From: Tyzzerella sp.
GTDB taxonomy: Bacteria > Bacillota > Clostridia > Lachnospirales > Lachnospiraceae
Direction: 5' to 3'
Assembly (NCBI GenBank): GCA_017465565.1
Contig: JAFTWA010000018.1
Location: 41,662-105,661, forward strand
Length of the DNA: 64,000 nucleotides
Each line of letters starts with the position of its first letter. Positions within the stretch are counted from its first letter, which is position 1. Made by a program: the position numbers and the translations under genes. Under the pieces are notes generated by a model, which saw nothing but the letters and a program-made list of their open reading frames with translations, searched no databases and was not told the origin of the DNA. Of the stretch, positions 3,001 to 15,217 are shown piece by piece.

Positions 3001-4625
3001 CAAGCTACTCAGGTTATGACCTAGTAATTAACAATGCAACAGCAGGATGCGCAATTTACAACAAAGGTATTGTATGGGTAACAGACTTTGCGGCGACAAA
3101 TCCAAAGGACGGTATTGTTTCTCGTTACGATGGTTGGGCTACAATGTCAGGAAACGTGTCTATTACAAATGCAAGCAGAAACCCAATCACTACATACGGT
3201 AATGAAAGCAAGGGTTACGACAATGGTGTTGAATTAACATCAGGTTCAACTATGACAATTGATGGTGCGGCCAGCCATGCTATCAACAATAAGGGTTCGT
3301 TCCTTGCGGCAGCAGATACAAACATTAGTATTAAGAATGTTGTTGGTCAAAATATCAATGCTATTAATAACAATAAAGGAACTATGACGTTGGGTAATGT
3401 TTCTGTAGATAATGTACAGGTAACAATCTCTATGTACGATAGCTCAACGATTAATAGTAACTCAGGTAATGCTATCCAGACAAGCGGTTCATTGGAGTTA
3501 AATGGTAATGCAGTTATCTCGAATATTTACACATTGCCGGCAAACAACAAGACAGACAATTCAAACAGCTCTGGTGTAGTTGTTAAAAATGGTGGAAGCA
3601 TTACAGGTTCAGGAAGCATTACTGTAAATGGTAATGGAACAAAAGAAATTGATGGCACAACATACCAAGGTGTATTCAATGGTATTTTTACAACAAAATG
3701 CACAATTGACATCGATGGAGATATCACTGTAGATACAGCTAAAAATCAAGGTATTTATGTTGCAGATGCAAATGCGAGGGTAGATGCAAGAAATATCTCA
3801 ATAAGTAATATTAGTGCAGGACACGGTATTAATATAAATAATACATCTGGTCAATTAAATGCAAGTGGAGATATTACTATAAATACAGTTAAACAACGTG
3901 GTATTAGCAATACTCAAGGTGGAGAAATTACAGCAGTAAACATCAGTGTAACAGGGGCTGAAACTATTGGTATTAACCAAGGCGGTGGTGGAAAAATCAC
4001 CGTAAGTGGAAAAGTTCAAGTTACAAATTCTACAGAAGAAGGAATTAGTATGGGCGGTTCTACGCTTACAGCAGCGAACATCATCGTAACCAATGCTGGA
4101 AAAGATGGTATTCTTAACAAGGGAACTATTGGTGGTGATGGTATAGGAAATATAATCGTTGATATGCAAAATACAGGAACATATGGTATTCACAACAATG
4201 GTGGAACGATTAAAGTTGCAAGTGTGTCAGTAAGTAATACAAAAGATATTGCTATTTTAATGGAAGGCAGTGCAACATTACAAGCAGACGAGGTGAGCGT
4301 TGATACGGTTGCTAGTGGTAAGCAGGGAGTTCAACTCAATCATGCCAACACACTTACTGTAACACGTATGACAATTAACAATAACAATAATAAAAATGGT
4401 CTGAGATTGTATAATAAAAATAGCAATCCAACAGTTACGATTGGTACTTTAATTGTAAAGAATTGTGATGAATATGCTCTTGCAGCAGATCAACAGGACA
4501 TTACAAATACAAATTTAAATATCACATTGCTTCAGCATTATAATTGTGGCTCTAGCAAAGACGGTGTCGTTGTACACAGCAAAGTTAAGAGTGGTATTGG
4601 AAGTATAGAAGAATTAACACAATAG
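1..4625 (+). CDS. Giant beta-helix repeat surface protein, 5' end outside window
   Basis: The frame is open from the window edge to a TAG at 4623-4625, so at least 1540 residues are present and the true start lies upstream; the ATG at base 6 is not a credible start. The chain is built from short coils of about 20-23 residues carrying signatures such as HGIYN, NGVYN, HGINN and NGIQN with T/S/V-rich strands, typical of right-handed parallel beta-helix (pectate-lyase-like) proteins. Between about 1155 and 1690 a four-coil unit of 87-89 residues recurs. I see no sortase motif or membrane segment at the C-terminus. It is followed 12 bp later by a secreted hydrolase gene in the same direction, so it probably belongs to that operon. 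Family knowledge suggests a surface-exposed or secreted glycan-interacting or adhesive role; enzymatic activity cannot be claimed. The N-terminal anchor is unseen, but the two other giant proteins in the window are anchored at their N-terminus. Confidence 0.85.
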   Translation, partial: TMTGGTNEGAAKDGVSVQKGAAAEIKDGEIKNCVHGLCNNGELTADDVTLSECGIMNYKTGVLTLNGTTVDTAAVYCLANNGGQVKAKNFTAKKCDTCAVYNFAGDMELTDLTVSGSRDGNIANGGGNLTVNGAMLEKCRDKSIVVANGKAVFNDVTLAGTSREKYGVYVYGGECYMTDGTLYDISSTAFKVDTGGYVEAKNISMKDIAQIAFRADGGKILAEGVTVETLGSHAIYNMEGEITLINAKIKGVDKNVIQQKGGTTTFKQVEAEEIGNHGAYIELGSVTLEESTFKNMEGNGIYLVEGENEAALIDFTLDGTGKQGINNSSKVTIDGLTVKNAAQNGIFNKENATITAKDVVITGVGEHGINNYNTMTVEKAEISNTGKGSNGLQNKGTLTIKDVSVESSKNHGVYNTGTIKGSSLDIKDVKQNGVYNNKGTFNVSKVSVDGAGEHGLNNADSMTVSNVTVNDTGKGKNSIQNSGTLSITTATLKNSKNHGIYNTGKISGKDVTVTNAGENGVYNAEKGTIDAIKGLVVSGTGSHGINNDAKLVVSDVTISNTGKDKNGIQNAGTADITTATVTGSKNHGIYNSGKLSGTDITVTKPAGNGIYNNGGTVDKIVGLTVKNAGDQGVNNNSKFAAANVNISGTTKNGVYNNGGTATINKLEVANTGEHGVSNSGTMTLKNADISTPGAGKNGIQNTGTITTSAVVVDKSPNHGVYNNGTFNAAGKLTVTNADVNGIYNYEGKMTAATVEISATGSHGVNNSGKIEIAAIQVTKAGDNSIQNSGDMTVKAATLTDSGKHGLYNGKTLYGENIAITNAGDLALSNSGDMEIHGLETIGTANKAIYNSGYAEIYKATIDGTSVDNVSNSTAQYLVDNNGGVLDFTDTTLKNAKGTALHNRGNAATSVTNVIINTAGNYGTFVEGGSSLSGDGLEINNITKGIDGAEGMPIKNAGKITMLDHVTIGADDPAVTGSETEVSTTLKNIENNAIVNDAATASYSGYDLVINNATAGCAIYNKGIVWVTDFAATNPKDGIVSRYDGWATMSGNVSITNASRNPITTYGNESKGYDNGVELTSGSTMTIDGAASHAINNKGSFLAAADTNISIKNVVGQNINAINNNKGTMTLGNVSVDNVQVTISMYDSSTINSNSGNAIQTSGSLELNGNAVISNIYTLPANNKTDNSNSSGVVVKNGGSITGSGSITVNGNGTKEIDGTTYQGVFNGIFTTKCTIDIDGDITVDTAKNQGIYVADANARVDARNISISNISAGHGININNTSGQLNASGDITINTVKQRGISNTQGGEITAVNISVTGAETIGINQGGGGKITVSGKVQVTNSTEEGISMGGSTLTAANIIVTNAGKDGILNKGTIGGDGIGNIIVDMQNTGTYGIHNNGGTIKVASVSVSNTKDIAILMEGSATLQADEVSVDTVASGKQGVQLNHANTLTVTRMTINNNNNKNGLRLYNKNSNPTVTIGTLIVKNCDEYALAADQQDITNTNLNITLLQHYNCGSSKDGVVVHSKVKSGIGSIEELTQ

Positions 4626-4637
4626 GAGGGGAAATAA

Positions 4638-6953
4638 ATGAAAAAATCAGTAAAAGTAATTTTAATTTCAGCGTTGCTTCTGATAGGAATTATTTCCTTT
4701 CAGTTAATAGCAGGTGCAAATGATGACCTTATTGACAATAAATACGGTCAAGGGTTTAACGGGTATACTTCTGACGAAGGTCAGATTCGTACCTCAGATT
4801 ATATTTCCTCAACAGAAATTGCTGTGGCAGCAGGCGAAACCGTATGGTTTGGTCCATGTGAAGAAACTCAATATTTCCATTTGGTAGGTTTTGATGCAGA
4901 TGGAAACGCCGTGACAGATAAAGTTAGAGGAAAAGAGTTAGAAGTAGTAGATACCTTCAGCAACGGACTCGTTATTTACAAGTACAAAGTGCCAAGCGGT
5001 GTGGCTAAGCTTATATTCTCAGCACCAGCTTCACTTGCTGAGGTATACACAGTGTCAAAAGCAGAGTTCAGCTGTCTCAGTTGGGATGCCCACTGGACAA
5101 AGAAAGGTTTCCAGACATCAGACTATGTAGGACAAAGCAGTTTCTACAAAGTAGCTGATGGTAAAGTAATCTATTTTGGAGCTATTACGAAAGAGGATGC
5201 ATTAGCTTCTGTAACATACGATGAAAATGCCAACAAGATTGGAACAATCAATGCAAGTGATTTGAAATTAGTAGAATCATTCGGCGGAGATTATGGAATT
5301 TATTGCTACACAGCAAACGATTCAAGTGTGAAGTATGTTCAGGTTCCATATGATACTGATTATGAACAATACTATACATATCTTCAGAAAGCGGAAGCTC
5401 TTTCAGACGAAGCAGTTATCGAATACTTTATTTCAACATTTGGTATTCAAAGACCATTGTCTTCTACAGTGCAGGCACTGGCAGGAAAGAGTGCATTATT
5501 CGTAGGTGACTCTATCACATTTGGGGCAAGAGACCGCGCAAAGATTTATAAGTACGGTGGATGGGCAGGACGTATTGGATACTTCTGTGACATGGATGTT
5601 CTTAATAATGGTGTATCAGGTGCATGTATCACTAAGGCGCGTATAGAATCACACAGTGAAAAACACTATATTTACAATAACTTAGTTGCTGCAAAAGGTA
5701 ATAAGTATGATTATGTCATTATGCATGGTTTGTTTAATGACGCCAGCATCTCTGTAGATGTCAATGAATTTGCTACAGAGTTAACATTGTTGTTTGACAC
5801 AGCAAAAGCACAGCATCCAGAAGCAACATTGGGATATATTGTAAACTTTGAAACAGAACGTGCTGTAGACCAAGCACCATATGTGGATAAGGCTATCGAA
5901 ATTTGTAAAGCTAAGGGTATCGAATACCTTGATTTATACCACAATTCAACATTTGATGTAGAGTTTGATGATGGCTTACATCCGAGCTCAGCAGGATATG
6001 ACAGCATGTACACAATCGTGGCAAACTGGATGGCTAAGCTTGGCAAAGGAAGCAGCACAGACACAACGACGTCATCAGCTAAGGTGATGAGCTATAACGT
6101 ATACTATGACACAGGTGATACGAGAGTAACAAACAGACTTCAGAAGGTTGCTGCTGTTATCACAGCGCAGAATCCAGATATTCTTATGTTACAAGAAGCT
6201 TGTACAGGCAGCCAGGGATGGGTACCACAGATTATAGCTTATGCAGAACAAAATGGATATGGATACTATGGATTTGCACACAAAGCAGATAAAGGTATTG
6301 ACAGCAGTGCTGCAGATAAGGACACAACAACGGCAGGTGGCAGCGAAGGAGAGATGACTCCAATTCTTTGGAAAACAAGTAAATATAACCTTGTGAAGAA
6401 AGGTCATTTCTGGGCATCGGCTACTCCAAATGTGGCTGGTTCTGAGAACTGGACAGTAGGCGGCAATACAATTAATAGTGGATATCCACGTTGTATCAGT
6501 TGGGTAATCTTAGAGGATAAAGCAACGGGAGAAGAACTCTTAGTAGTAAACTACCATGCGGCTCCAGATAAAGATGGAAAAGATAATACACTTATCCGTA
6601 ATTTGACAGCTCAGCTTGTAGTTGAAAAGATTTCAGAAATTCAAACAGCTAATAGTTATCCAGCAACAATCCTTGGTGGAGACCTCAATATGGCAGATGG
6701 TTCAACAGCATATACAACAATTACTGGTAATGGTTACCAGGATATTTGTAAGGCGGCAGATGAATCTGATAACTGTGGTTCATACAATGCCTGGGAGCGT
6801 ACAGACCGCTCAAAATATGCAAAAGGTGATTACTTATTTATGGACGAAGGAACAACTTCTTCTTCATACAAGGTAATTGATGATATTGATCCAGATAATG
6901 CAAATATGCATGTATCAGACCATAGCCCAATTATGGCGATAGTTAATTATTAG
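4638..6953 (+). CDS. Secreted SGNH/GDSL hydrolase fused to EEP phosphodiesterase domain
   Basis: A 771-residue two-enzyme protein with an N-terminal signal peptide or signal anchor (MKKSVK then a hydrophobic stretch to about residue 26). Residues about 280-470 form an SGNH/GDSL esterase fold: block I GDSI with Ser292, and the catalytic pair in DGLHP at Asp445 and His448. Residues about 480-771 form an endonuclease/exonuclease/phosphatase (EEP) domain: SYNVYY at 485-490, LQE with Glu520, GGDLN with Asp682 and Asn684, and SDHSP with Asp761 and His762. The region before the SGNH domain has no family I recognise. The family suggests removal of ester groups and cleavage of phosphodiesters outside the cell; the substrate is unknown. 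The ribosome site TAGGAGGGG lies 12 bp after the preceding giant gene. A weak hairpin follows. The EEP half is clearly paralogous to the next gene. Confidence 0.88.
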   Translation: MKKSVKVILISALLLIGIISFQLIAGANDDLIDNKYGQGFNGYTSDEGQIRTSDYISSTEIAVAAGETVWFGPCEETQYFHLVGFDADGNAVTDKVRGKELEVVDTFSNGLVIYKYKVPSGVAKLIFSAPASLAEVYTVSKAEFSCLSWDAHWTKKGFQTSDYVGQSSFYKVADGKVIYFGAITKEDALASVTYDENANKIGTINASDLKLVESFGGDYGIYCYTANDSSVKYVQVPYDTDYEQYYTYLQKAEALSDEAVIEYFISTFGIQRPLSSTVQALAGKSALFVGDSITFGARDRAKIYKYGGWAGRIGYFCDMDVLNNGVSGACITKARIESHSEKHYIYNNLVAAKGNKYDYVIMHGLFNDASISVDVNEFATELTLLFDTAKAQHPEATLGYIVNFETERAVDQAPYVDKAIEICKAKGIEYLDLYHNSTFDVEFDDGLHPSSAGYDSMYTIVANWMAKLGKGSSTDTTTSSAKVMSYNVYYDTGDTRVTNRLQKVAAVITAQNPDILMLQEACTGSQGWVPQIIAYAEQNGYGYYGFAHKADKGIDSSAADKDTTTAGGSEGEMTPILWKTSKYNLVKKGHFWASATPNVAGSENWTVGGNTINSGYPRCISWVILEDKATGEELLVVNYHAAPDKDGKDNTLIRNLTAQLVVEKISEIQTANSYPATILGGDLNMADGSTAYTTITGNGYQDICKAADESDNCGSYNAWERTDRSKYAKGDYLFMDEGTTSSSYKVIDDIDPDNANMHVSDHSPIMAIVNY

Positions 6954-6990: not shown

Positions 6991-7057
6991 AGTGATTCCG
7001 CTTTATTTAATCTGAATAGCCCGGAATCTTTGAAGGGACAAGGAGGAATTGAAAAAG

Positions 7058-7864
7058 ATGTTAGGCAAGTATAAAAATAAAGTCAACCTAATGTGTTACA
7101 ACATCTTCTATAAAGACGTAGCGGAAAGAAGCCCAAATATACAAGATTTAATCTTAAAAAATGATCCAGATGTGTTGCTGCTTCAAGAGGTCAGTGTTGA
7201 CTGGATTCCATATTTGCATGCTTTTATGTCAGAAAATGGTTATAGCTACTACGGCTATGGACGTCATGGCAATGAAATGAGTGGGTCTGGTTTTGATGAC
7301 AGAGAACAATTTACACCAATTTTGTGGAAAACAGACAAATTTGATTTGAAAGATAGTGGACATTTTTGGCTGTCTTCAACCCCAGAGGTTTATTCGTCGG
7401 ATTGGGCAGATGGAACTACCAGTAAATTTCCAAGATGTGTCAACTGGGTAATTCTTCATGATAAGAACACAGGTGGGGAATTCATGGCATTGTGCATTCA
7501 CACAGACCCAGAAAGTGGCGATGTGAGAACAAAGTCAAGCAATCTGACGGTGGAAATGGTAGATAGAATTCGTGGAAAACTGCCTATGGCTATGGGTGGA
7601 GACTGGAACATGCTACTGGAAGACGAGGCTTATCGTGCAGTAGTAGAAGGTGGTTATCCAGATGTGCGTTTCACAGCAGAAAAAGCTATGAAAGGCGGCT
7701 CGTTCAATGCATGGGGTAAACGTACAGAAGAAAATTTTGCATATGGAGACCACATTTTTGTTTCAAAAAACGTGGCAGCAGAGAGCTTTGAAGTGGTGGA
7801 TGATTGTTATGAGGGTGTACATATCTCTGACCATTGTCCGCTCAAAACAGTTTTATACTATTAA
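7058..7864 (+). CDS. EEP-family phosphodiesterase/phosphatase, no signal peptide
   Basis: A 268-residue single-domain endonuclease/exonuclease/phosphatase protein. Visible motifs: CYNIFY at 13-18, LLQE with Glu44 (metal ligand), GGDWN with Asp182 and Asn184, and SDHCP with Asp258 and His259. It aligns end to end with the C-terminal half of the preceding secreted fusion: both share TPILWKT, GHFW, PRC.(N/S)WVIL and (S/F)NAW, so they are paralogs. It lacks a signal peptide and is predicted cytoplasmic. Start choice: an in-frame TTG at 7049 lies only 2 bases after AGGAGG (7041-7046), whereas ATG 7058 lies 11 bases after it, so 7058 is preferred. The gene precedes a GH65 phosphorylase by 29 bp. 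I infer that it handles a phosphodiester product made and imported by the locus; the substrate cannot be read from sequence. Confidence 0.85.
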   Translation: MLGKYKNKVNLMCYNIFYKDVAERSPNIQDLILKNDPDVLLLQEVSVDWIPYLHAFMSENGYSYYGYGRHGNEMSGSGFDDREQFTPILWKTDKFDLKDSGHFWLSSTPEVYSSDWADGTTSKFPRCVNWVILHDKNTGGEFMALCIHTDPESGDVRTKSSNLTVEMVDRIRGKLPMAMGGDWNMLLEDEAYRAVVEGGYPDVRFTAEKAMKGGSFNAWGKRTEENFAYGDHIFVSKNVAAESFEVVDDCYEGVHISDHCPLKTVLYY

Positions 7865-7893
7865 ATTACTTTAAGGAAAGGAATTGTTATGCT

Positions 7894-10137
7894 ATGAGAG
7901 ACTGGATGTTAATAGAATCTGGTTTTCAAAAAGAATATGTTCGCAAATATGAATCCATTATGAGCATGGGAAATGGATACATGGGAGTACGTGCGACCAC
8001 GGAAGAAAGTTACGAACGAGCAATTCGTTATACTTTAGTAGCTGGAACATTTGATGCAAAGGAAGATGAAAATACGACTGAGCTTCCGAATGCAGCAGAC
8101 ACGACGGCCCTTTTTGTGACAGTGAATGGGATTCCATTGCATTTAACACAGGAAAATACAGAAAACTATCAGCGCAGCTTATCGTTATCCGATGGATTGT
8201 TAAAGAGAAGCTTTGTATGGAGTCCGAGTTCAGGGCTGCGTTTGGAGTTCTGCTCAGAACGTTTTGTTTCGTTAAAAGAGCTTCATGTATTGGGACATAG
8301 GATGTCCATTAAGGTGCTGGAAGGCTGTGGAACACTGGAACTTCAAAGCGGCATTCTCGGAGGAGACCGTTATGGTTCCCCACATTTTACTGCAATGCAG
8401 GGACAAGAGCAGGATGGGATTATGCAATATGCAGAGACCACTCATGAAAGCAATATTACGTTTGTGACTAGTGCAACAGTAGATGCATGGATGAGAGATA
8501 AAGACGGCATTGAAACTCCGATAGATATGACAATTGACGCAGAAAAAGAACGTGTCATGTCATCCTGCAGAGTCGTTTTTGAAGAGGGACAGGAGTTTCA
8601 TTTGGAGAAACTTTGCAGAATTGCAACCACTAGAGACAAAGATTTCGAACTGGCAAGCGAAAATGTAAGTAAGTGGGGAAGAGATTTGCTTCTGCATCGC
8701 GAAAAAGAGGAGATGGAAAAGCTCCGCATAAGAGGCTATGAAAAGACTTGGAAGCTTTCACAGGATTGCTGGAAAGAACTGTGGAGTGAAAAGGATGTTA
8801 TCATTTCTGGCGAAAAAGAAAATGCGGAGTATGACCAGCTCGCAGTACGATTTGCTATTTATCATCTGACAATCATGGCGCCACTCCACGATAACCGTAT
8901 GAATATCGGGGCAAAAGGATTGTCTGGCAAAGGATATTACGGGCATACCTTCTGGGATACAGAAATTTATATGCTTCCATACTATGCTTGGGAGAATCCG
9001 AAGGGTGCCCGTTCCTTATTAGAATATCGCTATCTTTGTCTGGACAGTGCGAGAGAAAATGCACGGGAAAGTGGATTTGAAGGCGCAAAATATCCTTGGG
9101 AAGCAGCCTGGATTACAGATGGTGACACCTGTCCGAAGAAGCATTTTACACAGTATGAACTTCATGTTACGGCTGACGTGGCTTATGGTATTTACTACTA
9201 TTATGAAATTACACATGATATAGATTTTATGAGGAAATATGGCTGTGAGATTCTGTTTGAGACGGCTCAGTTCTGGAGATCCCGACTAGAATATAATGCA
9301 GAAAAGGATGTCTATGAAATCCGTAATGTAATAGGTCCAGACGAATTTACCCACGAGGCAAATAATAATGCGTATACTAATTATTTAGCTCATCTGAATT
9401 TGAAATTTGCAATCGAGTGGAAGGAGCGTCTCCAGAGAGATTATCCAGAGGACTATGAGCGTTTGAATGAGAAGTTGAATCTGGGAGGAAGAATGAAAGG
9501 CTGGCTGGAAGGACGCGATAAGTTGGTGCTTCCTGTGCCAAATGAAGACAATATTCTTCCACAGGATGACGACTATATGACACTTCCTGAAATAGACCTA
9601 AGTATCTACAGGAGAAAAGAGAAGAAGCTTCGAGTGGATTATCCATATCCTGTATACACAAGATTAAAGGTGTCAAAACAGGCAGATGTAATGAATCTCT
9701 TCTTATTATTAGAGGAACTCTTCACAGACGAGGTAAAGCGTGCTAGCCTGGCTTACTATGAGCCATTCTGTGTACATGAATCTTCTCTCAGCCTGTGTGC
9801 TTATTCTATGCTGGCAGCTGACTGTGGTGAAAATAAGAAGGCATATGAACTATTTGTAGGAGCAAGAGATATTGATTTAAAACTGAAAAATGACTCCGAC
9901 CATGGAATTCATGCAGCATCCCTTGGCGGTATCTGGCAGTGCTGTGTACTGGGATTCGCAGGGGTTCGTATGTGTGGCGGTAAACTCCGTATCAGACCAA
10001 ATCTTCCAAAGCATTGGGAGAGCGTGAAGTTCCGAATGTGGTGGAGAGGAAGTCAGCTTGAAGTGACAGTCACAAAGGACAATGTGGCATATGAAGTGCT
10101 TCAGGGATCACACATAGTGGAAATAGAAACAAAATAA
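7894..10137 (+). CDS. Glycoside hydrolase family 65 phosphorylase
   Basis: A 747-residue cytoplasmic GH65 enzyme. Members reversibly phosphorolyse alpha-glucosides (maltose, trehalose, kojibiose, nigerose and others) to beta-glucose-1-phosphate plus a sugar. Hallmarks: an N-terminal beta-sandwich with MGNGYMGVR near residue 27, FWDTE at 353-357 in the barrel, VIGPDEF with the catalytic acid Glu484, KQADV at 595-599 and the later HAASLGGIWQ segment. Length fits the family (about 750-770). ATG 7894 is chosen because AAGGAAAGG (7873-7881) precedes it; an in-frame extension back to 7834 would overlap the previous gene. A strong terminator follows at 10142, ending this transcription unit. Substrate specificity is not decidable here, but the secreted neighbours imply an oligosaccharide or glucoside released at the surface. 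Confidence 0.9.
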   Translation: MRDWMLIESGFQKEYVRKYESIMSMGNGYMGVRATTEESYERAIRYTLVAGTFDAKEDENTTELPNAADTTALFVTVNGIPLHLTQENTENYQRSLSLSDGLLKRSFVWSPSSGLRLEFCSERFVSLKELHVLGHRMSIKVLEGCGTLELQSGILGGDRYGSPHFTAMQGQEQDGIMQYAETTHESNITFVTSATVDAWMRDKDGIETPIDMTIDAEKERVMSSCRVVFEEGQEFHLEKLCRIATTRDKDFELASENVSKWGRDLLLHREKEEMEKLRIRGYEKTWKLSQDCWKELWSEKDVIISGEKENAEYDQLAVRFAIYHLTIMAPLHDNRMNIGAKGLSGKGYYGHTFWDTEIYMLPYYAWENPKGARSLLEYRYLCLDSARENARESGFEGAKYPWEAAWITDGDTCPKKHFTQYELHVTADVAYGIYYYYEITHDIDFMRKYGCEILFETAQFWRSRLEYNAEKDVYEIRNVIGPDEFTHEANNNAYTNYLAHLNLKFAIEWKERLQRDYPEDYERLNEKLNLGGRMKGWLEGRDKLVLPVPNEDNILPQDDDYMTLPEIDLSIYRRKEKKLRVDYPYPVYTRLKVSKQADVMNLFLLLEELFTDEVKRASLAYYEPFCVHESSLSLCAYSMLAADCGENKKAYELFVGARDIDLKLKNDSDHGIHAASLGGIWQCCVLGFAGVRMCGGKLRIRPNLPKHWESVKFRMWWRGSQLEVTVTKDNVAYEVLQGSHIVEIETK

Positions 10138-10228: not shown

Positions 10229-10261
10229 ATTCACGGACAAAATACGTGCAATTCACGGACA
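10229..10261 (+). promoter_or_regulatory. 22-bp-spaced direct repeat before agrB (candidate LytTR operator)
   Basis: ATTCACGGACA occurs twice, at 10229-10239 and 10251-10261, exactly 22 bp apart, i.e. two helical turns. Direct repeats of 9-11 bp with this phasing are the known site architecture of LytTR-domain regulators, and such a regulator is encoded at 11713. A weak -10-like TATGTA (10285-10290) or TACACT (10289-10294) follows. A related pair lies before the gene at 15340. Confidence 0.6.
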
Positions 10262-10315: not shown

Positions 10316-10900
10316 ATGCTGAATAAAATATCACGTAAAATGACTTCGGGATTGATCAAATATGTGAAAGATGTTAGGTATGACGAGGAAGTTTATGTAT
10401 ATGGATTTGAATTAGTAATTTCTACAGTTTTATGTTGGATAGCAATTATTATTAATGCGTTTTTATTATCAGATGTGATGTCGGGAATTGTGTTTATAAT
10501 TGTTTTTTCATCATTGAGAATATTTGCAGGTGGGTATCATGCCGATTCCTATATAAAGTGTTTTCTGATGAGCAACGCCTTTTTTGTTTTTTTAATGATG
10601 TTAAAAGGATTGTTATCAGGTATACATATTTTAGTGTGGTGGGGAGTGTTTTTGATGTGCGTAGGATATATTGGTCAAAATGCACCAATTATTAATCCCA
10701 AGCAGCCAATAGGAGAAAATAAAAAGAAGTTGTGTAAAAAGAATATAAGATACGTGTTGGGAATTGATGTTTTGGTTATTTTTGTGTATACAATTTTAAA
10801 TCAAAAAATGGCAAATATGGCAATATTAAGTATTGCACTAGTGGCAGTGCTTATGCTGATTTCAAATAATCATAAAAATACGAGTAGAAAGGAGGTCTAA
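10316..10900 (+). CDS. agrB: AgrB-like autoinducer-processing membrane peptidase
   Basis: A 194-residue integral membrane protein of the AgrB family, the cysteine protease that removes the AgrD C-terminal tail and closes the thiolactone or lactone ring. The conserved core RIFAGGYHADSYIKC gives Arg68, catalytic His75 and catalytic Cys82, close to the positions in Staphylococcus aureus AgrB (His77, Cys84). Hydrophobic segments lie at about 32-52, 55-70, 84-105, 108-122, 145-160 and 165-185. The start at ATG 10316 has AAGGAGG (10301-10307) 8 bases before it; the longer in-frame reading from 10226 would include the direct repeats and promoter and is rejected. It is followed 4 bp after its stop by agrD. 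Probably autoregulated through the upstream repeats. Confidence 0.92.
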   Translation: MLNKISRKMTSGLIKYVKDVRYDEEVYVYGFELVISTVLCWIAIIINAFLLSDVMSGIVFIIVFSSLRIFAGGYHADSYIKCFLMSNAFFVFLMMLKGLLSGIHILVWWGVFLMCVGYIGQNAPIINPKQPIGENKKKLCKKNIRYVLGIDVLVIFVYTILNQKMANMAILSIALVAVLMLISNNHKNTSRKEV

Positions 10901-10904
10901 GTTT

Positions 10905-11009
10905 ATGAATTTGCTAGCAAGATGTATTGAGATGTTTGCGGTATATGGAGCAAATTGTGCTTCGATTTGTATGTCATACCAACCAAAACTTCCAAAGTCT
11001 TTAATGTAA
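10905..11009 (+). CDS. agrD: AgrD-like cyclic autoinducer propeptide, 34 aa
   Basis: A very short gene directly after agrB with ribosome site AAAGGAGG (10889-10896). The product starts MNLLARCIEMFAVYG, an amphipathic leader as in AgrD, and ends YQPKLPKSLM, the acidic-or-proline tail type removed by AgrB; the clostridial QP..PKSL pattern is plain. Between them lie Cys18, Ser20 and Cys22. Aligning the QP motif with Clostridium perfringens AgrD (known ring of five residues, then one residue, then QP) puts Ser20 at the ring-forming position, giving ring SICMS and a lactone; a thiolactone through Cys18 or Cys22 is the alternative. A terminator begins one base after the stop. Position, size, tail and partner make the assignment strong; the mature peptide is inference. 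Confidence 0.88.
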   Translation: MNLLARCIEMFAVYGANCASICMSYQPKLPKSLM

Positions 11010-11010
11010 G

Positions 11011-11042
11011 AAATCGCATCTATTTAGTTAGATGCGATTTTT
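11011..11042 (+). terminator. Rho-independent terminator after agrD
   Basis: AAATCGCATCTA (11011-11022) pairs perfectly with TAGATGCGATTT (11029-11040), 6-base loop, followed by T's to 11042. It separates agrBD from the regulatory genes, so peptide genes can be expressed at a higher level than the sensor genes. Confidence 0.85.
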
Positions 11043-11063
11043 ACGTGGACATAATAAAGGAAA

Positions 11064-11675
11064 ATGAGGACAGATAAAAAAGAAAAGCTTTTATTAGCGT
11101 ACAATATAGCTAGATATTACGATATGAGGTCTATGTGTATGTATGATGAGAAAGATAATCAATATGTTGAAGCTATCAAATTGGCGGCAGGAGGAGTGCA
11201 GTACAGAAACTTATCTGTAAAAAAAACATTAATAGAAGCCGTGGAGCAATTACACTTGTTTTATAAAAATTCGTTAGAGAAAAAATATTTAGAAGTTGCA
11301 AAATTATTTATTCAAGCTTATTTAGAGTTGGGGTTTTCATATCAAGAGGGAGAGCACGTATTTAGTGTGATTCTGGATGAGTTGGGAGAATGCCGCGAGG
11401 TAGAATATTCTAAAAAAATCTATGTGGAAAGAAGGATTAAACTCAATAAATCTCAGGTTAGGAGTATGATTAAGAGATGGCCAGCGTCTCCGCATCAAAC
11501 AATAAAAATAGAAGAGGTGGTTGAGGATATTATCAATAAAGTAAAGAGCAAAGCAATAGGAATTTATTATTATGAATGCGCAGTAACAAAAGATGTATAC
11601 GAATTAGTAATAAATGAAAATGAAGTTTTCTTTCATGATTTGAAAAGAGGTGTCTTTTTCACTTTATTACAGTAA
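11064..11675 (+). CDS. Unknown 203-aa protein inside the agr locus
   Basis: I do not recognise this protein. It is 203 residues, charged, Lys/Glu-rich and predicted soluble: no signal peptide or membrane segment. The first 110 residues look mostly helical (for example LLLAYNIARYYDM and YLEVAKLFIQAYLELGFSYQEG). The last 60 have a mixed pattern with KAIGIYYYECAVTKDVYELVINENEVFFHDL, resembling a small beta-rich C-terminal domain. It sits between the agrD terminator and the response regulator gene, all in one direction, so it probably joins the sensing system or is co-regulated. The ATG at 11064 has AAAGGA (11056-11061) close before it. An accessory or immunity-like role is conceivable but unsupported. 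Confidence 0.7.
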   Translation: MRTDKKEKLLLAYNIARYYDMRSMCMYDEKDNQYVEAIKLAAGGVQYRNLSVKKTLIEAVEQLHLFYKNSLEKKYLEVAKLFIQAYLELGFSYQEGEHVFSVILDELGECREVEYSKKIYVERRIKLNKSQVRSMIKRWPASPHQTIKIEEVVEDIINKVKSKAIGIYYYECAVTKDVYELVINENEVFFHDLKRGVFFTLLQ

Positions 11676-11712: not shown

Positions 11713-12432
11713 ATGATACACATTGCAATCTGTGAAGATGAAAAAAAGGTGCTCGAGGAGTTACGTAATAAGGTTAACGATTTTCTTGAGAAAGATAAAA
11801 TTATAGCTAAAGTAGAGGTATATTCACAGAGCAGAATGTTACTCTATGATATTCAAGAGGGGAAACATTTTGATTTGATTTTGAGCGATATTGAAATGCC
11901 AGGTATTGATGGAATGAGATTGGCTGAAAATATAAAAAAATATCTATCAGAAGTCCTTATCATTTTTATCACGTCGCACTTAAAATATGCAATAGATGCA
12001 TTCGAGTTATCTATTTTCAGATATGTTCCGAAAGATTCTATCGCAGCTAGGTTGCAAGTTGCATTGGGTGATGCTGTGAAAATAATTAACTTGCAAAAAG
12101 ATGAATTTTATGTAATTGAAACATTAAGTAGGTTGGAAAAAATTCCATATAAGAACATCGTGTACATACAACGTCAAGGTAAAAATAGCATTTTTTATTT
12201 GACGGATAATACTTCAACAAAAATTCGAAAAAGTTTATCTCAGTTATACGGTGAATTTAATCAAGAAGATTTTGCATATATTGACCGAGGAACTATAGTA
12301 AATTTGGCGCATATTCTAACTATTGTAGAGGGGAATGTTAGAATGACAAACGGAGAATGCTTGTATTCGAGCCAAACGAGGATAGAAGAGATAAAAAACA
12401 AAATGAACACATTTTGGAGAAAGAATCTATGA
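11713..12432 (+). CDS. agrA: LytTR-family response regulator (AgrA-like)
   Basis: A 239-residue regulator. Residues 1-120 form a receiver domain: acidic pair Glu8/Asp9, phospho-acceptor Asp59 in SDIEMPGIDG, the Thr/Ser in FITSH near 90 and Lys in RYVPKDS near 108. Residues about 135-235 form a LytTR DNA-binding domain (IPYKNIVYIQRQGKNSIFYL, then FAYIDRGTIVNLAHI). This class binds paired direct repeats about 22 bp apart, matching the repeats before agrB and before the gene at 15340. Ribosome site AAGGAGG (11699-11705). Its stop overlaps the kinase start (ATGA), so the two are translationally coupled. The order regulator-then-kinase differs from the staphylococcal B-D-C-A order. Confidence 0.9.
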   Translation: MIHIAICEDEKKVLEELRNKVNDFLEKDKIIAKVEVYSQSRMLLYDIQEGKHFDLILSDIEMPGIDGMRLAENIKKYLSEVLIIFITSHLKYAIDAFELSIFRYVPKDSIAARLQVALGDAVKIINLQKDEFYVIETLSRLEKIPYKNIVYIQRQGKNSIFYLTDNTSTKIRKSLSQLYGEFNQEDFAYIDRGTIVNLAHILTIVEGNVRMTNGECLYSSQTRIEEIKNKMNTFWRKNL

Positions 12433-13742
12433 ATATAGTATATAAGTTGGTAGATTTTATAGCCTCTTATATAGAACTTTTTGTTCTATATGAGATATAC
12501 GCCGAATTATTCGCAAAAAATATTCGTAAGAAAAATATTCTGAGCATAAAAATTTTAGCTACAGTTGTAGGAGCTATAATGGTTGCTATATGTAATCATG
12601 TGTCGATTTTTTCATATTTCACAATGATTATGGGTGCAGTTTATATGAGTATTTCAGCATTACTTTTATTCAAGATAAATTGGATTCCTTTATTTTCTGT
12701 GGCGAGCTTTTATATTTTGTGCTTAAGTTATTTCGATTTTTTCATAATTTCACTATTTTCATATATATGGAGAGATGAGAATATTATGGCAACGCTTTCT
12801 GTTCAGGGGTTGCCAAGGTTATTTTTTATCTTGACTGTAAAGACATTATGGATCATATTTTTCTGGCTGTGTAAAGATTATATTAAAGTTTTTCAAAAAA
12901 AAGTCAAACGTATGTATTTTGTTCTCATACTTTCGATAGTAGGATTTTGTGGATTTACTTTTTTGGTAGAACAAACATGCAATATGCTTAATTATTCTTT
13001 AACTGGAGTATGGCTTGCAATGGTACTCGGATTAGCTTTTTTCATTTTTATTACATATTTCTTGATTGTAAGGCAGGAAGAAAAAAATAAACTACATATT
13101 GAGACTATGAGAAGCGAATTGCTAGAAGAGAAATATGAATCTATTCAGAAAATATATTCAAGTAATGCAAAACTATATCATGATATGAACAATCATTTGA
13201 ATGTATTGTATCAACTGCTTGATGATGAGAATACAGAAAAGGCTAAAGAATATATAAAAGAAATTGGACAACCTATTAAAAGGTTATCAAAAACTGTATG
13301 GACAGGAGAAGAGGTTGTAGATGCAGTAATAAAAAGTAAGGTTGAGATAATGAAGGAAAAAGATATTGAATATGAGATCAATGCTGAATTTCCTGATAAT
13401 TCAAACATAGCACAACATGATATGTGTACAATACTTGCTAATTTGTTGGATAACGCAATAGAAGCAACGAGTAAATTAGAAGATAACAGAAGAATCTCAT
13501 TGACAATCCGTAACATAAACCAGTTTCTTGTCCTAAAGGTGTCAAACACGTGTATTTATATTAATCAACAATTTGATTCCCTGCCGAAGACAACAAAGGA
13601 TAACAAACAGTTACATGGTTGGGGGCTTCCGAGTGTGTTGGCTGCGGTAAAAAAATACAATGGAACGATGGAATGTTTCAGTGTGGAAAATGAATTTACA
13701 GTATCTATTATGATGTTTTGGGAAACTGTGAAAACTAAATAG
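12429..13742 (+). CDS. agrC: AgrC-like GHKL sensor histidine kinase
   Basis: A 437-residue membrane sensor. Roughly the first 220 residues hold six hydrophobic segments, the peptide-sensing domain typical of AgrC-type kinases. The cytoplasmic part has a dimerisation helix with YHDMNNHLNVLYQLL, phospho-acceptor His251, then a GHKL ATPase domain: N box ANLLDNAIEA (Asn338, Asp341, Asn342) and a HGWGLPSVL glycine box. The class senses cyclic peptides and phosphorylates a LytTR regulator. The start at ATG 12429 overlaps the regulator stop by 4 bases; a longer in-frame reading would lie inside the regulator gene. A terminator follows at 13757. I infer its ligand is the product of agrD at 10905. Confidence 0.9.
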   Translation: MNIVYKLVDFIASYIELFVLYEIYAELFAKNIRKKNILSIKILATVVGAIMVAICNHVSIFSYFTMIMGAVYMSISALLLFKINWIPLFSVASFYILCLSYFDFFIISLFSYIWRDENIMATLSVQGLPRLFFILTVKTLWIIFFWLCKDYIKVFQKKVKRMYFVLILSIVGFCGFTFLVEQTCNMLNYSLTGVWLAMVLGLAFFIFITYFLIVRQEEKNKLHIETMRSELLEEKYESIQKIYSSNAKLYHDMNNHLNVLYQLLDDENTEKAKEYIKEIGQPIKRLSKTVWTGEEVVDAVIKSKVEIMKEKDIEYEINAEFPDNSNIAQHDMCTILANLLDNAIEATSKLEDNRRISLTIRNINQFLVLKVSNTCIYINQQFDSLPKTTKDNKQLHGWGLPSVLAAVKKYNGTMECFSVENEFTVSIMMFWETVKTK

Positions 13743-13894: not shown

Positions 13895-14119
13895 TTAAGA
13901 TTTTCTCATGTCGCGACCATTACATTCAAGGCGGTATGCCTTGGATGTCATCCTGCTAAGGCAGGCATCAGCATAGGTGTTGTCTTTGAATAAGTCCCAC
14001 CATTTGATGACTGGAAGCTGAGATACTATCATCGTAGACTTTTTACAGTCCCTTGTTTCAATGATTTCAAAACTTATAGAAGCCCTTTCCTCGTATGTTT
14101 TCGTGCGCTGGAAGCCCAT
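13895..14119 (-). pseudogene. istB C-terminal fragment (IS21 helper ATPase)
   Basis: Only the last third of the IS21 ATP-binding helper protein remains. From about 14060 down to the stop at 13895 the minus strand reads IIETRDCKKSTMIVSQLP, then a segment with NTYADACLSRM and RLECNGRDMRKS, which matches the IstB family C-terminal end (sensor region and C-terminal helix). Walker A and B, which lie upstream in intact IstB, are absent. The fragment's first residues overlap the istA remnant in another frame, and the homology switches near 14060-14105, marking the deletion junction. Confidence 0.7.
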
Positions 14120-14761
14120 CGTCTATAATAAGCACCGTCTTTTTCATTGACTTCTTTATAGTAAAGGTGTTTGGGTCTCATATGACTGTCCTCAGTAATA
14201 TATTTTGGAAAGTCTTTGTAGGACCTCTTATGCTTACAGATCAATCGATTATATTGATCACAAATGCGAATCTCTGACACTGTTGCCTTAACGATTGCAG
14301 ATTTTCCGCAATGAGTATAAACTACAGAATAGTAGTGGTTATCATACTCGATGTGGTAGTTATCAGGGATTCTTGTGACAGTTTTGTAATCGCATACCAT
14401 GAAATTTCCGCCTGGCAGTGGTTTTAAACATGGGTTATCTTCTTTGTATTCGAGCCAACAGAATGCAACATTTACTTTGCTACCTTTGGCATGAATACGG
14501 TCATAATAAGTTTGGAAGTCTGGCAAAGGAATTGTTTTTCTCTGAAGATTTTCAGGAGGATAAAACATCATTTCTACCTGAGCAGGCTCCATAGTTTTTA
14601 ATTGCTCCAGTGAAAAACCTTGAAGCCTTGAAGCGTTTGAGAATGAGCTGAACGGTACCATAACCGATATGATAACGGTTCTGAATTACCTTTAGGGCAC
14701 ATTTATTCTGGCGCATTTGAATTACGCCAATAATAGTGTTGTAGTCTTGCATGATACACAT
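14074..14761 (-). pseudogene. istA fragment, frameshifted and without DDE core (IS21 transposase)
   Basis: The minus strand first encodes an N-terminal HTH region (YHIGYGTVQLILKRFK, up to about 14615), then a frame change leads into GFSLEQLKTMEP and FYPPENLQRK, DFQTYYDRIHAKGSKV and FCWLEYKE. It then jumps straight to the C-terminal beta-barrel part (IPDNYHIEYDNHYYSVVYTHCGK, shown in pieces) and HLYYKEVNEKDGAYYRRWA. In an intact IS21 transposase the integrase catalytic core of about 200 residues lies between these blocks and it is missing here. Frameshift plus deletion make this inactive. The ATG near 14749-14761 has CTCC/GGAGG-type sequence just upstream on the minus strand. Confidence 0.75.
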
Positions 14762-15152: not shown

Positions 15153-15217
15153 TGAAGGACAAATTTGTAATCAATCAAGGACATTATAAATTAATGAGAG
15201 TGTTACTAGTTATAATG
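15153..15217 (+). promoter_or_regulatory. Candidate LytTR operator and promoter for secreted-protein gene
   Basis: TTGAAGGACA (15153-15162) and ATCAAGGACA (15175-15184) repeat with 22-bp spacing, sharing the GGACA core and phasing of the pair before agrB. A perfect TATAAT at 15212-15217 starts 28 bp after the second repeat and lacks a good -35, as expected for an activator-dependent promoter. I infer control by the LytTR regulator at 11713. Confidence 0.55.

Follow-up and report, generated by a model that had tools for sequence, protein, structure and literature searches.

We analysed a stretch of 64,000 nucleotides of contig JAFTWA010000018.1, hereafter called the window, in which a short precursor gene, agrD, lies within the gene order agrB-agrD-X-agrA-agrC. 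The features of this locus are as follows (no strand is assigned to the repeats):

10230..10261, no strand: direct repeat TTCACGGACA-N12-TTCACGGACA with a period of 22 bp upstream of agrB, presumed AgrA (LytTR) site
10316..10900, + strand: agrB, AgrD-processing membrane peptidase (PF04647, 123.8 bits, cut-off 23)
10905..11009, + strand: agrD, 34-aa autoinducing-peptide precursor (TIGR04223, 26.2 bits, cut-off 19)
10956..10958, + strand: codon of Cys18, a conserved Cys two residues before the predicted ring Ser
10962..10976, + strand: predicted five-residue lactone core Ser20-Ile-Cys-Met-Ser24, with Ser20 in the ring column
10977..11006, + strand: C-terminal tail YQPKLPKSLM, which AgrB presumably cleaves off
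11011..11042, + strand: hairpin with U-run, likely intrinsic terminator of agrBD (-19 kcal/mol, z -6.2)
11047..11072, no strand: GGACA-N16-GGACA (period 21), weak, possible second site at the start of X
11064..11675, + strand: X, an ORF of 203 codons; the alignment with most relatives begins near codon 26 (11139)
11713..12432, + strand: agrA, LytTR response regulator (Response_reg and LytTR above cut-off)
12429..13742, + strand: agrC, GHKL sensor kinase (HATPase_c_5, 81.7 bits, cut-off 22), with an ATGA overlap with agrA

Translation of the 34 codons of agrD gives MNLLARCIEMFAVYGANCASICMSYQPKLPKSLM, which contains Cys7, Ser24 and Ser32 besides Cys18, Ser20 and Cys22. The stop codon of agrB (TAA, 10898-10900) is followed 4 bp later by the start of agrD, ahead of which AGGAGG is present at 10890-10895. 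The original prediction for this DNA had placed the 34-residue frame and the residues Cys18, Ser20 and Cys22 correctly, and its assignment of the frame as an AgrD is upheld by the score above the curated TIGR04223 cut-off. When the whole assembly (3.22 Mb, 88.6% complete) was scanned with this model, agrD was the sole place above the cut-off. TIGR04223 is an imperfect model for this AgrD group: the cut-off was passed by 7 of the 10 related AgrDs that were scanned, while L210 (17.5 bits), L215 (16.3 bits) and L012 (15.3 bits) remained below it. Uncorrected pS was 0.65-0.90 versus a pN of 0.19-0.25 in all five agrD comparisons drawn from the window, L210, L216 and L221 (0.82 and 0.21 for the window and L210), and uncorrected pS was clearly higher than pN in 9 of the 10 pairs computed. 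For L217 and L218 the values were 0.27 and 0.00, and for the near-identical pair L219-L220 they were 0.04 and 0.03, again uncorrected. Judged against its relatives, agrD looks constrained. The hairpin downstream of agrD was not matched by any of 200 shuffles, and it is absent from the list produced by a mechanical terminator scan. By eye, L003 and L011 have hairpins of different sequence downstream of agrD.

AgrB carries His75 and Cys82, which are invariant in all 12 sequences aligned and have the same spacing as the catalytic pair in S. aureus AgrB. The gene agrD is neighboured by an agrB (PF04647) with both catalytic residues, the residue at the ring position ahead of its x-Q/E-P tail is a Ser, one of the two residues that AgrDs have there, and its linkage to an AgrC kinase and a LytTR-type AgrA places the locus among agr quorum-sensing systems. 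Further upstream in the window, the end of one ORF (4638-6953) and the whole of the next (7049-7864) resemble endonuclease/exonuclease/phosphatase-type domains by eye, and they are followed by a GH65 glycoside enzyme at 7834-10137, for which GH65 domains were matched. On the - strand at 14074-14761, two ORFs of 195 and 69 aa look like transposase fragments by eye.

To find relatives in named genomes, AgrB was used as a single-protein query and gave none, whereas a profile of X recovered 12 loci, 11 of which harbour an AgrD of the same type. An additional AgrD with both Cys18 and Ser20 was found adjoining a broken X at L196; this locus has an AgrA-like gene downstream, no agrB was found in the stretch examined, and it is a decaying copy. 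After identical sequences had been merged, the subclade comprised 12 distinct AgrDs including that of the window. X, AgrA and AgrC of the named relatives are 54-61% (12 relatives), 52-61% (the 11 relatives whose stretch includes agrA) and 40-53% (12 relatives) identical to those of the window, respectively, and the identity of the nine subclade AgrBs aligned is only 29-39%. We also searched 385 genomes with an AgrB alignment, which gave a match in 81 genomes, with 30 loci listed; among the loci examined we found no additional member with Cys18, and by eye the AgrDs of L233, L246, L247 and L254, which were new loci, are of the Ser type.

A 6-kb stretch of genome G009, which shares the genus code of the window, is identical to part of NZ_SLZV01000030.1 from Faecalimonas umbilicata DSM 103426 (L210), and this assigns the window to the F. 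umbilicata genus group within the Lachnospiraceae. This locus resembles the window in genus group, gene order and type of direct repeat. Its core NCA[SVCLS] differs from that of the window at two positions, and its AgrB is 36-38% identical to the AgrB of the window, so the two signals may not be shared. Among the other loci, L211 (MAG SUG269, 3291-4525) retains agrB in shortened form along with X, agrA, agrC and a repeat that is degenerate, with agrD missing between agrB and X; possibly it is a signal-blind or a listening-only locus, or an assembly fault. L212 and L217 are rearranged: X is encoded on the strand opposite to agrC, agrD and agrB, and agrA lies beyond.

The comparison with AgrD homologues that had been proposed together with the original prediction showed that both Ser20 and the YQP of the tail are present in all 12 distinct subclade AgrDs, and YQPKLP is identical across three aligned AgrDs. 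Ser20 lies seven residues ahead of the tail proline, at the canonical i-4 position. In the thiolactone class of autoinducing peptides (AIPs) this position is taken by a Cys; here the closest cysteines occupy positions i-2 and i-6. Originally three ring residues had been put forward, Cys18, Ser20 and Cys22, with a preference for Ser20. Cys22 was rejected, as it would leave a ring of three residues and is absent from 5 of the 12 distinct AgrDs (present in 7, while 10 have a Cys somewhere within the five ring residues). Cys18 is invariant (12/12), which had been overlooked. Since Cys22 is dispensable in the relatives and Cys18 is not, the real choice is between Cys18 and Ser20, so that two of the three proposed residues are left for ring closure.

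To place these residues in a wider context, we compiled a non-redundant set of 151 AgrD candidates of the Lachnospiraceae, most of which came from a 397-genome sample of this family, with matches listed down to an E-value of about 5e-4. From 120 listed places without a locus, 115 were added; G200 and G000 were already included, and G139:C62, G072:C154 and G179:C66 are omitted. AgrDs from loci found through AgrB were additionally taken, rows below 13 bits and duplicates were removed, and the adjoining agrB was checked for part of the rows. Among the matches listed, the ring column of the 151 candidates contains 119 Cys, 29 Ser, one Ala and two gaps; the alignment puts L156 in the wrong place and shows a gap for L168, both of which are Cys rings by eye, and by eye a Ser occupies the ring column in 28 of the 151. 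A Cys within the five residues is found in 13 of these 28 Ser cores, 7 of which begin with Ser-Cys (L050, L085, L105, L115, L117, L138 and L152), again among the matches listed. L050 (core TASCVIM, Ser-type by pattern) has an AgrB that groups among the Cys types, so all seven may instead be Cys rings of four residues, in which case the Ser types would drop to 21 of the 151 matches listed. The combination of a Ser ring with a free Cys had been called uncommon among autoinducers, and these counts (about 28 Ser rings among the 151 matches listed, 13 of them with a ring Cys) indicate that its rarity was overstated. The core SICMS itself did not recur elsewhere in the comparison, which covered the 151-row survey and the 12 distinct subclade AgrDs.

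The ring Ser is reflected in the AgrB lineage. In a tree of 51 AgrB-AgrD pairs (midpoint root, long branches; L039 was excluded because its AgrD spans two frames), 20 of the 21 Ser-type pairs fell into one AgrB group of 22 rows (99/91), together with two Cys-type pairs. The AgrB of the window lies inside an all-Ser group of 14 rows (99/93), which is over-sampled, as 9 of its rows were found through X. The Ser/Cys label changes three times on the tree versus a mean of 16.5 after shuffling, and none of 500 shuffles was as low, although this figure is not a probability since near copies and the sampling based on X ease clustering. L012 and L015, which keep the ring Ser with Phe or Val replacing Cys18, are also inside the all-Ser group; support is lower (90/76) for the node that unites L012 with the subclade. 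The precursor of L012 has no Cys at all, and Cys-free GAG-x-x-Ser cores are found in L184, L233 and L247, three loci outside the AgrB tree. The AgrB lineage supports a predicted serine-lactone class for the window. Together, the alignment of the tail motif, the AgrB tree and the Cys-free relatives with the same Ser speak for the Ser20 ring and the SICMS core as originally proposed.

On this basis we consider it probable that the locus encodes an agr circuit with a Ser20-closed pentalactone SICMS, Cys18 outside the ring and X as an accessory to the sensing half. The agrBD genes would form the signal-making half of this circuit in Faecalimonas-type Lachnospiraceae. AgrB is predicted to cleave AgrD between Ser24 and Tyr25, after which the hydroxyl of Ser20 would close the ring onto the carboxylate of Ser24, resulting in a five-residue lactone in which Cys22 stays free and which is preceded by a short N-terminal tail, probably including Cys18. 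The exported peptide would then be sensed by AgrC, which would phosphorylate AgrA, and AgrA in turn would activate agrBD via the direct repeat with its 22-bp period. X may assist the sensing half as an accessory protein.

Cys18 and Ser20 are both invariant, so conservation within the subclade cannot separate them, and Cys18 could instead close a seven-residue thiolactone, CASICMS, with Ser20 being kept for example for recognition by AgrB or AgrC. A thiol is the better nucleophile, most AgrDs of the family use a Cys (119 of 151 at the ring column among the matches listed), and the size of the ring varies, with nine residues in GBAP according to the partial text of PMC12312760. Furthermore, the Cys18 column of the survey holds Ser or Thr in 96 and Cys in 4 of the 151 matches listed, three of these four being the window, L003 and L011, and the order NCAS of the subclade resembles the usual NSAC with the residues swapped. 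On the other hand, the sister AgrDs of L012 and L015 retain the Ser without Cys18, and the five-residue column contains a Cys or Ser in 148 of the 151 rows among the matches listed. We regard a Cys18 thiolactone, although it is the strongest competing reading, as unlikely. Ser20 is most likely the better ring candidate, judged by its position, the AgrB group and the sister AgrDs without Cys18, and in the simplest reading Ser20 would be the old ring residue of the lineage and Cys18 a later addition.

Two further readings keep the Ser20 ring and differ in what becomes of the cysteines. If the mature N-terminus were Cys18, its thiol could attack the lactone, and a subsequent S-to-N shift would give a head-to-tail cyclic heptapeptide. 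A conserved Cys that precedes the ring by two residues, at i-6, would suit such a reaction, and enzyme-primed native chemical ligation in clostridia is reportedly the subject of a study. S-to-N rearrangements of thiolactone AIPs without an exotail, as well as the O-to-N migration in a lactone analogue, are described in the partial text of PMC11297923; the shifting residue there is, however, the N-terminal ring residue itself. We consider the heptapeptide quite improbable. The same holds for the idea of a Ser-type subclade that fixed a Cys two residues ahead of the lactone Ser, with X co-travelling, in which the thiol would remodel the signal once AgrB had closed the lactone, via a Cys18 thioester and an acyl shift to the head-to-tail cyclic heptapeptide; if true, this would represent a two-step autoinducer maturation encoded in the precursor sequence. 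Conversely, the system could be an ordinary Ser-type agr system in which Cys18 and Cys22 are inconsequential, as the survey contains Ser-type cores without these cysteines and Cys22 varies. Cys18 has nevertheless been retained despite the divergence of AgrB, the nine subclade AgrBs aligned sharing only 29-39% identity with that of the window, and we find this reading highly improbable.

For Cys18 outside the predicted Ser20 ring, a contact with the receptor or thiol chemistry on the lactone are possible roles, as is, in the alternative, ring closure by Cys18 itself. Its occurrence can be compared with that of X in the genome sample to which both queries were applied: a Cys18-type AgrD with an adjoining X is present in G000 and G200, G027 has a Cys18 AgrD and a broken X, and no X match was found for the sister systems without Cys18 (G134 and G291), which are few cases. 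In G009, outside that sample, a Cys18 AgrD and X are both present.

Rings closed by a Ser are known from other systems. A Ser pentalactone AIP of C. thermocellum was confirmed by LC-MS/MS in culture supernatant, according to the partial text of PMC5322536. Its precursor, Clo1313_2818, is similar to the AgrD of the window in its five-residue Ser lactone (S25 to F29), the Tyr30 next to it and a conserved Pro beyond, but its predicted mature form is without an exocyclic tail, and in that part of the paper no neighbouring agrB, agrC or agrA is reported. The peptides listed in the partial text of PMC12312760 include C. difficile AgrD2, NSA[SSWVA], which shares with the window the ring Ser, the N-x-Ala-Ser motif and an agrB2D2C2A2 set, but has a Ser at the place of Cys18 and no Cys in the listed peptide. 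The same listing contains RIPT[STGFF] of S. pseudintermedius and GBAP, QN[SPNIFGQWM], of E. faecalis, which are Ser-closed lactones as predicted for the window. These belong to a staphylococcal system and the fsr lineage, respectively; unlike the window, neither peptide has a Cys, and the ring of GBAP has nine residues versus the five predicted here. An exocyclic Cys is not new either, as C. botulinum AIP-1, ACYW[CVYQP], has one in that listing, but its ring is closed by a Cys and the tail Cys stands three residues before it. Published clostridial serine lactones (PMC5322536 and PMC12312760, both in part) also weaken the claim that the predicted combination would be rare.

What is new here is the fixed Cys-x-Ser motif together with the partner X and the predicted signal, serine lactones themselves having been published. 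Among the titles listed we found no publication on this AgrD subclade, nor any on agr quorum sensing in Faecalimonas, in a search outside which most subscription papers lie. SICMS is a defined and readily synthesised candidate signal for gut Lachnospiraceae. A sizeable minority of the family has a Ser at the ring position, mostly paired with a separate AgrB lineage, so that signals of this kind would be misnamed wherever a thiolactone is taken for granted.

The direct repeat upstream of agrB was the sole exact match in its own assembly. The related pattern GGACA-N17-GGACA is present in exact form upstream of agrB in 10 of 13 loci, the window counted, and a degenerate form of it can be recognised by eye in L211, L214 and L215. 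As background, 446 kb of other loci (some duplicated) gave two matches, which represent one duplicated locus. We take the 22-bp period to agree with that of LytTR direct repeats, which makes AgrA the likely ligand of the repeat. An AgrA regulon beyond agrBD was considered and rejected: only the agrB repeat was exact, and four further places with three mismatches were found in the assembly versus 20 for a reversed-pattern control. The window contains one further copy of the pattern GGACA-N17-GGACA, at 15157, and in L215 the pattern is found past agrC at about 4500, where it is possibly another AgrA target. The period-21 site at the start of X was found in none of the 12 named relatives.

No Pfam or NCBIfam family was matched by X, and a sequence search of the PDB gave no convincing relative (best E-value 0.055). 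X matches of 20-23 bits in three of 19 genomes (G091, G119 and G249) lie inside frames of more than 500 residues and were treated as chance. X is a conserved protein of no matched family, and its gene precedes those of LytTR-type regulators. A further 15 X loci have no agrB in the stretch examined; in 13 of them (L192-L195, L197-L204 and L209) X was found upstream of an AgrA-like regulator, identified as a BLAST match to the AgrA of the window, and usually directly, and the remaining two (L196 and L205) are broken copies.
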